The notes beneath the pieces were generated by a model. That model saw only the letters and a list, made by a program, of their open reading frames with translations. It was not told where the DNA came from and ran no database searches. A DNA stretch of 64,000 bases, from contig NZ_CP030139.2 of assembly GCF_003846445.2 (NCBI RefSeq), positions 806,001 to 870,000 of the forward strand, written 5' to 3'. This document shows, in pieces, positions 41,712 to 43,334 of this stretch (the stretch's first letter is position 1; every line of letters starts with the position of its first letter). The position numbers were made by a program, and so were the translations under genes. This DNA comes from Synechococcus elongatus PCC 11801. GTDB lineage: Bacteria > Cyanobacteriota > Cyanobacteriia > Synechococcales > Synechococcaceae.

Positions 41712-42686
41712 TTACGGCTTTTGGATCAACAGTTCAGCCACACGGCGGCGAGCCGCAGGGTCAATGCCAATCAGGCGAACGTATTTACCTTGGTGTTCTT
41801 GCAAGAGAGCGTTCAGCGCAGACAACACAGTCGACTCGCTCTGTCCACTCAAGGTCGGCAAGGTCTGCCAAGAGCTGGTTTGGAAGCGGCGCTTGTCAGC
41901 CACTTCTGCACTGATCCGGTAGCCCTGCGAGAGCAAGCCGCGGACTTGGCTGGCCACGTCACCTGATCCGGAACCATTGCTGGCATAGCTGGGGCTGGAA
42001 GTCGAGGTCGTCCCTGCTGCCGGTGCTGCTGCACCGCTAGACCCAACAGGCCCTTGGGGATTCTGAATCAAGGCTTCAAAGACTCGGCTGCGCGTGCTGG
42101 TATCAATCCCGAGGAGGCGGACGTATTCGCCTTCATGCTCGGCCAAGCAAGTTTCCAGTTCAGCGAGGACTTGGCGTTCGTTGCTGCTTTGGATCGGTGC
42201 ACAGGACTGCCAAGAGCTGGTGCGGAAGCGGCGCTTGTCCGCATGCTCCGTCCCAATCCGATAACCCTGGGCTAACAAGTTACGGACTTGACTGACAACT
42301 TCGGCAGAAAGGTTGCCACTGACACTGGCATAGCTGCTTTGACGACCGCCGCTAGGCGCTACAGCTACCGGCTGACTGCTCAGTGACTCAGGAACCGTAC
42401 CATCGGGCCGTTGAATCAAGGCTTCAAAGACTCGGCTGCGCGTGCTGGTATCAATCCCGAGGAGGCGGACGTATTCGCCTTCATGCTCGGCCAAGCAAGT
42501 TTCCAGTTCAGCGAGGACTTGGCGTTCGTTGCTGCTTTGGATCGGTGCACAGGACTGCCAAGAGCTGGTGCGGAAGCGGCGCTTGTCCGCATGCTCCGTC
42601 CCAATCCGATAACCCTGATTCAACAGGCTCCGAACTTGGTTGATGACTTCAGAACTGAGTCGGCCTTGGCCGTTGTAAGCGCTCAC
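41712..42686 (-). CDS. ccmM: CcmM short form (M35) from an internal start
   Basis: The codon for Val217 is GTG (42686-42684), preceded by GAGG eight bases upstream, exactly where PCC 7942 is known to start its 35-kDa form (Val216 there; this protein has one extra N-terminal residue). The product, about 324 residues, has only the three SSUL modules. In PCC 7942 M35 is the more abundant form and condenses Rubisco in the carboxysome lumen. Both site and codon are seen here; that translation starts here is inferred from the relative. Confidence 0.82.
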
Positions 42687-43334
42687 GGTCGTTGCCTCGC
42701 TAGACGATGGACGAAGGGGAGAAGGAGTTGGTGTGGAATTGAAATCAGCAGTCGCTGCTGGGGTAGACCGCACAATCACCGGAGGTGAGCCGATGATGTG
42801 GCGAGCAAATTCCCGATCTTCCGGACGAACCTCTGGCAGTCGATCGGCCTGCTGCTGGGTCGTGATGATGGCCCCTGAGGGAACGTAGCGACCGGGTGGG
42901 ATCTCTACGTCTTGCACTAGGGCGTGCATCATGATTACCGAACCGGCCCCAACCCGAGCGTTGAAAACGGTGGACCGAAAACCGACAAAGCAATCATCTC
43001 CGAGATAGGCCGGACCATGGATCAGTGCTTTGTGGGTGATGGCCACTCGACGACCGAGCCAGACAGAGTAGTCAGCTTGGTCATCGCCCAAGACACGACC
43101 ATATTCCAAACCGTGGATGACAGCACCTTCTTGCAAAAGGCTGTCTTCTCCGATTTGGAATGGCGCTCCTTCGTCAGCACGGATCGAAACCCCCGCTGCA
43201 ACGCGGACACCTGCTGCCAGCCGAACGTCACCAATAATGCTGGCGATCGCATGCACCTGAGCAGCGGGATCTATATGGGGCTCAGCCAACCGACCTGCCG
43301 TTGAAGCAACGGGGATCGTCGTTGGGCTCGGCAT
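41712..43334 (-). CDS. ccmM: Carboxysome scaffold CcmM (full-length form, M58)
   Basis: CcmM of 540 residues from the ATG at 43334 ([11 protein letters not shown]). Residues about 1-200 are a gamma-carbonic-anhydrase-like left-handed beta helix, with the metal-ligand region [15 protein letters not shown]. Three Rubisco small-subunit-like (SSUL) modules follow at about 225-313, 341-430 and 455-540, joined by Ser/Pro/Ala linkers. The first two hold a Cys pair ([10 protein letters not shown] and [10 protein letters not shown]) that can form the redox disulfide known from PCC 7942; the third lacks it. The first two modules share a 206-bp stretch that is identical at DNA level. A second product, M35, starts internally at Val217. 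Confidence 0.97.
42064..42269. repeat. 206-bp perfect direct repeat in ccmM, copy in SSUL2
   Basis: This stretch is identical base for base to 42412-42617, an offset of 348 bp. It covers most of the second SSUL module. The sequences on both sides differ, and the third module is diverged. Identity at synonymous positions points to recent gene conversion or unequal exchange. Confidence 0.95.
42412..42617. repeat. 206-bp perfect direct repeat in ccmM, copy in SSUL1
   Basis: Identical to 42064-42269. It covers most of the first SSUL module, from [12 protein letters not shown] to the end of VFEALIQ. See the other copy. Confidence 0.95.

Follow-up and report, generated by a model that had tools for sequence, protein, structure and literature searches.

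The ccmM gene lies on the minus strand of the window, the whole 64-kb stretch of DNA that was analysed, and adjoins rbcL and other ccm genes among the open reading frames. The first 210 residues of the encoded protein match the gamma-carbonic-anhydrase-like (gammaCAL) chains 7d6c and 7o4z in a PDB comparison, and its C-terminus consists of three Rubisco-small-subunit-like (SSUL) modules, the first of which matches 6hba_A. All three modules are retained, each with its own linker, and modules 1 and 2 carry a pair of cysteines that module 3 lacks. The CcmM of PCC 7942 (M58/M35; SSUL1 structure 6HBA) is built in the same way, with a gammaCAL domain, three SSUL modules of which SSUL1 and SSUL2 alone carry cysteine pairs, and an internal start for the short form (PMC8580825). 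For the PCC 7942 protein, Rubisco binding and condensation have been demonstrated (PMC8580825). In beta-carboxysomes, the valency of the Rubisco network is determined by how many modules CcmM has and by their redox state.

Table. Parts of ccmM in the window, with window positions
Feature	Position	Strand	Basis or remark
ccmM coding sequence, 540 aa	41712..43334	minus	ATG at 43334; open reading frame and translation
Domain make-up: gammaCAL domain and three SSUL modules			PDB matches 7d6c and 7o4z (CcmM gammaCAL), 6hba (SSUL1)
SSUL module 1, aa 225-309, cysteines C262 and C280	42408..42662	minus	Module HMM, cysteine check
SSUL module 2, aa 341-425, cysteines C378 and C396	42060..42314	minus	Module HMM, cysteine check
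SSUL module 3, aa 455-539, without cysteine pair	41718..41972	minus	Module HMM, cysteine check
Linker between modules 1 and 2, 31 aa, unique sequence	42315..42407	minus	Module spacing, flank differences
Tract copy in module 1, Q240 to second base of codon 308	42412..42617	minus	Identical to 42064-42269
Tract copy in module 2, 206 bp	42064..42269	minus	Identical to 42412-42617
5' flank of module 1 tract (helix 1), not homogenised	42618..42662	minus	7/45 differences to L003 module 1, 20/45 to L003 module 2
5' flank of module 2 tract (helix 1), not homogenised	42270..42314	minus	9/45 differences to L003 module 2, 18/45 to L003 module 1
Likely internal start (GTG) of short form CcmM35, in-frame codon 217	42686-42684	minus	Putative
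Block of ~41 bases around this GTG	42674-42714	minus	Identical to L003

Modules 1 and 2 share a tract that is identical at 206/206 bases. The two copies are offset by 348 bp, which corresponds to 116 codons and keeps them in frame, and the run is maximal, with no further extension on either side, confirming the perfect identity described in an earlier note on this DNA. No other exact direct repeat in the window reaches 30 bp. The tract spans the SSUL core and both redox cysteines, while the first helix lies outside it. Just beyond its borders, modules 1 and 2 differ at 20/45 positions on the 5' side and at 31/45 on the 3' side (gene orientation), and the third member of this family of three copies, module 3, is 60% identical, as expected from the earlier claim that the flanks and the third module differ. 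All 24 mismatches in the 255-bp alignment of modules 1 and 2 fall within the 49 bases outside the tract, for which random placement gives a log10 P of -19.7. Also, synonymous codons are identical at 69/77 positions between the two modules, compared with 29.7 expected (z 9.5). A search of a phage collection gave no match, and a search of a plasmid collection gave one distant Acaryochloris match and nothing else.

The comparison within the genus was made with one other species, L003 (2,696,255-bp contig), and a family-level genome search gave no relatives beyond those from the genus search. The CcmM of L003 is 90% identical in protein to that of the window, and its three modules are arranged in the same way. 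Unlike in the window, its modules 1 and 2 differ across the tract at 26/206 bases, 17/68 third positions and 5 residues. This agrees with the earlier note, which gave several residue differences between the first two modules of PCC 7942, and it means that the equal identity in all strains that would have implied selection was not found in this other species. Compared with the window tract, L003 module 1 has 36/206 differing bases and L003 module 2 has 44/206, with 24-34/68 third positions differing, indicating that the DNA of the tract is not conserved as such. The paralogous copies thus resemble each other more than either resembles its orthologue (0 vs 36-44/206), and this holds at synonymous sites as well. 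Since the copies are identical in the window but diverged in L003 and between the species, the window copies became identical after the species split.

The borders of the tract are sharp, and the flanks keep their positional orthology with L003. This applies to helix 1 on the 5' side (Table) and to the 45 bases on the 3' side, where the differences to the same-numbered and to the other L003 module are 7 vs 31 for module 1 and 18 vs 29 for module 2. Position-orthologous flanks exclude recent duplication of the whole unit as a simple explanation. Within the tract, the phylogeny conflicts with orthology (AU p<1e-4): the pairing of module 1 with module 1 is rejected at a p-AU of 5.8e-5 and that of module 2 with module 2 at 9.8e-5. 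Informative sites between the window and L003 were 26 concerted vs 1 cross for modules 1 and 2, 4 vs 5 for modules 1 and 3 and 6 vs 3 for modules 2 and 3. In these quartet site counts, module 3 shows no sign of conversion with modules 1 or 2.

With 0/206 differences between the copies (95% upper bound ~1.5%) and 17-21% between the species, a rough clock would place the last conversion in the window at less than roughly 8% of the species separation time. Modules 1 and 2 of L003 differ less from each other (26/206) than they do from the window tract (36-44/206), and for this reason they were probably also homogenised, at or after the species split, less recently and perhaps only partly. The tree support for a clade of these two L003 modules is low (47/0). 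Along its length the window tract is a mosaic, agreeing with L003 module 1 at some sites and with L003 module 2 at others.

A survey covered 197 distinct CcmM genes, taken from 80 loci of the genome collection and from an evenly drawn sample of the class. The longest exact internal repeat had a median of 20 bp, and an exact module repeat of more than 100 bp was present in 7/197 genes from four family codes (four genes in f13, including L019, which was taken as genome G071, and one each in f1, f33 and f20). These are L019 (248 bp, modules 1 and 3), L117 (218 bp, modules 1 and 3), L188 (210 bp, modules 2 and 3), the window (206 bp, modules 1 and 2), L104 (191 bp, modules 3 and 4), L111 (176 bp, modules 1 and 3) and L105 (125 bp, modules 2 and 3). 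The module pairs with long repeats also stand out in synonymous-codon identity, with z values of 7.9 to 10.2; the baseline of this test is raised (median z 1.2), and large values alone were used. Within f13, near-identical modules 1 and 3 occur in three species, with a separate pair in each, and a fourth species has such a pair in modules 3 and 4. All four CcmM genes of f13 (L019, L111, L117 and L104) contain long perfect tracts, making this the richest clade.

Across 50 independent species pairs, 6742 sites followed the orthologous pattern vs 450 concerted and 319 cross. The concerted excess by species pair was not significant, either among these 50 pairs (27 vs 15, p 0.09) or after leaving out the genus of the window and f13 (25 vs 15 species pairs, p 0.15), which suggests that conversion between ccmM modules is sporadic and lineage-specific, with a strong effect in certain lineages, and not a steady process across all cyanobacteria.

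The data are best explained by a recent intragenic gene conversion, in which 206 bp of SSUL module 1 or 2 would have been overwritten by the other, and we give this reading a probability of about 0.92. The earlier note had proposed recent gene conversion as well, and the proposal is backed by the sister species, the position-orthologous flanks, the AU test and the survey of 197 genes. The copying would be homologous and non-reciprocal, presumably RecA-dependent or by template switching, and would have left helix 1 and the linkers flanking the tract untouched. Modules 1 and 2 would then evolve in concert and module 3 alone, and the event in the window, which appears to be recent, would be one of several between ccmM modules across Cyanobacteria. 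A tandem duplication or unequal crossing-over, by which a whole 348-bp unit of module and linker was recently gained and the modules are identical by descent, would account for the offset of exactly 116 codons, and it agrees with the changes in module number on the gammaCA tree and with recombination products that are both in frame (see below). However, a recent event of this type would have brought the linker along, while helix 1 and the linkers differ by 44-69% between modules and each agrees with its positional counterpart in L003, which likewise has three modules. In addition, identical modules elsewhere can be non-adjacent (1 and 3), and there tandem duplication is no explanation, so that this origin is very improbable for the tract.

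A repeat of 206 bp can confuse short-read assembly, and the assembler could have filled one module with the sequence of the other. Errors of this kind usually collapse repeats and do not equalise copies in unique flanks, whereas the two copies here lie in distinct flanks inside a contig of 2,716,860 bp. Four further tracts of this kind each lie in a single large contig (4.2 to 4.9 Mb); with the window included, 5/7 genes with long repeats lie within contigs of 2.7 to 4.9 Mb, which argues against misassembly as the general explanation. We therefore regard an artefact as highly unlikely. Slightly less probable still is that the copies are held identical without recombination by selection, acting either on the protein or directly on the DNA, for example on a regulatory signal or an antisense RNA. 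Strong constraint on the protein is expected, with three SSUL modules contributing and disulfides in SSUL1 and SSUL2 (PMC8580825), but such selection is unable to hold synonymous sites identical. The L003 modules differ between themselves and from the window at many third positions, and the DNA is not conserved between the species.

Intragenic gene conversion is a known process. Paralogous photosynthesis sequences within a genome have been homogenised by gene conversion, in that case between separate genes and here between modules of one gene; the paper describing this makes no mention of ccmM. In spider silk genes, recombination homogenises the repeats inside a single gene (reference 17 in PMC6053082). 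Compared with the silk genes, ccmM is bacterial and encodes folded Rubisco-binding domains in few copies, of which the module cores and certain pairs alone are affected. No report of gene conversion between CcmM modules was found in the limited literature searched, and repeated conversion among these modules appears to be unreported there. Modules that repeatedly overwrite one another would confound module phylogenies, conservation scores and comparisons of SSUL1 with SSUL2 across species.

CcmM proteins with three to five modules were already known (PMC7059596), and the number of modules among the 197 genes ranges from 2 to 5. Five modules were observed in seven genes (L142 and L185 among them; open reading frames of ~810-840 aa, several in the genus code g105) and two modules in one gene. 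A quick gammaCA tree contains at least 18 changes in module number, a count that includes tree error. Recombination between the two tracts of the window is predicted to give in-frame products of 424 aa with two modules or 656 aa with four. In PCC 7942, all three SSUL modules contribute to condensation, with disulfides in SSUL1 and SSUL2; removal of one module mildly impairs CcmM-CcaA condensates and removal of two impairs them strongly (PMC8580825). Because the products are in frame, module number varies among species and the removal of modules impairs condensates in PCC 7942, it is plausible, as a prediction, that the tracts of the window could alter module number and Rubisco condensation, as the earlier note had suggested. 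Its proposal that unequal crossing-over is in progress at this gene is likewise a plausible prediction. Conversion, deletion or duplication between direct repeats would offer a simple route to a change in valency, and strains that carry long perfect repeats, as this one does, lend themselves to measuring the rate at which variants with 2 and 4 modules arise.

The genes with the longest tracts were also compared for cysteine status (L001, L003, L019, L104, L105, L111, L117 and L188). The homogenised modules share the same status and modules of the other status are left out, a pattern that may follow from similarity alone. In three f13 genomes, the homogenised modules 1 and 3 lack the cysteine pair that module 2 has, and the homogenised modules 2 and 3 of L188 both have it. 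It is a tentative and rather unlikely idea that recurrent conversion in CcmM stays within a redox class, with modules of the same cysteine status homogenising and the other class staying distinct. If so, conversion limited by selection would preserve the distinction between Rubisco grips that are sensitive to redox state and those that are not, and module-number variants would also arise from the long perfect repeats in polyploid cells.

A further observation concerns the likely internal start of the short form. The putative GTG is preceded by GAGG 8 bases upstream, and the conserved block around it (Table) coincides with the lowest synonymous change of ccmM between the window and L003, with 3/30 codons changed compared with a mean of 38% (p 5e-4, uncorrected for the choice of the lowest window).
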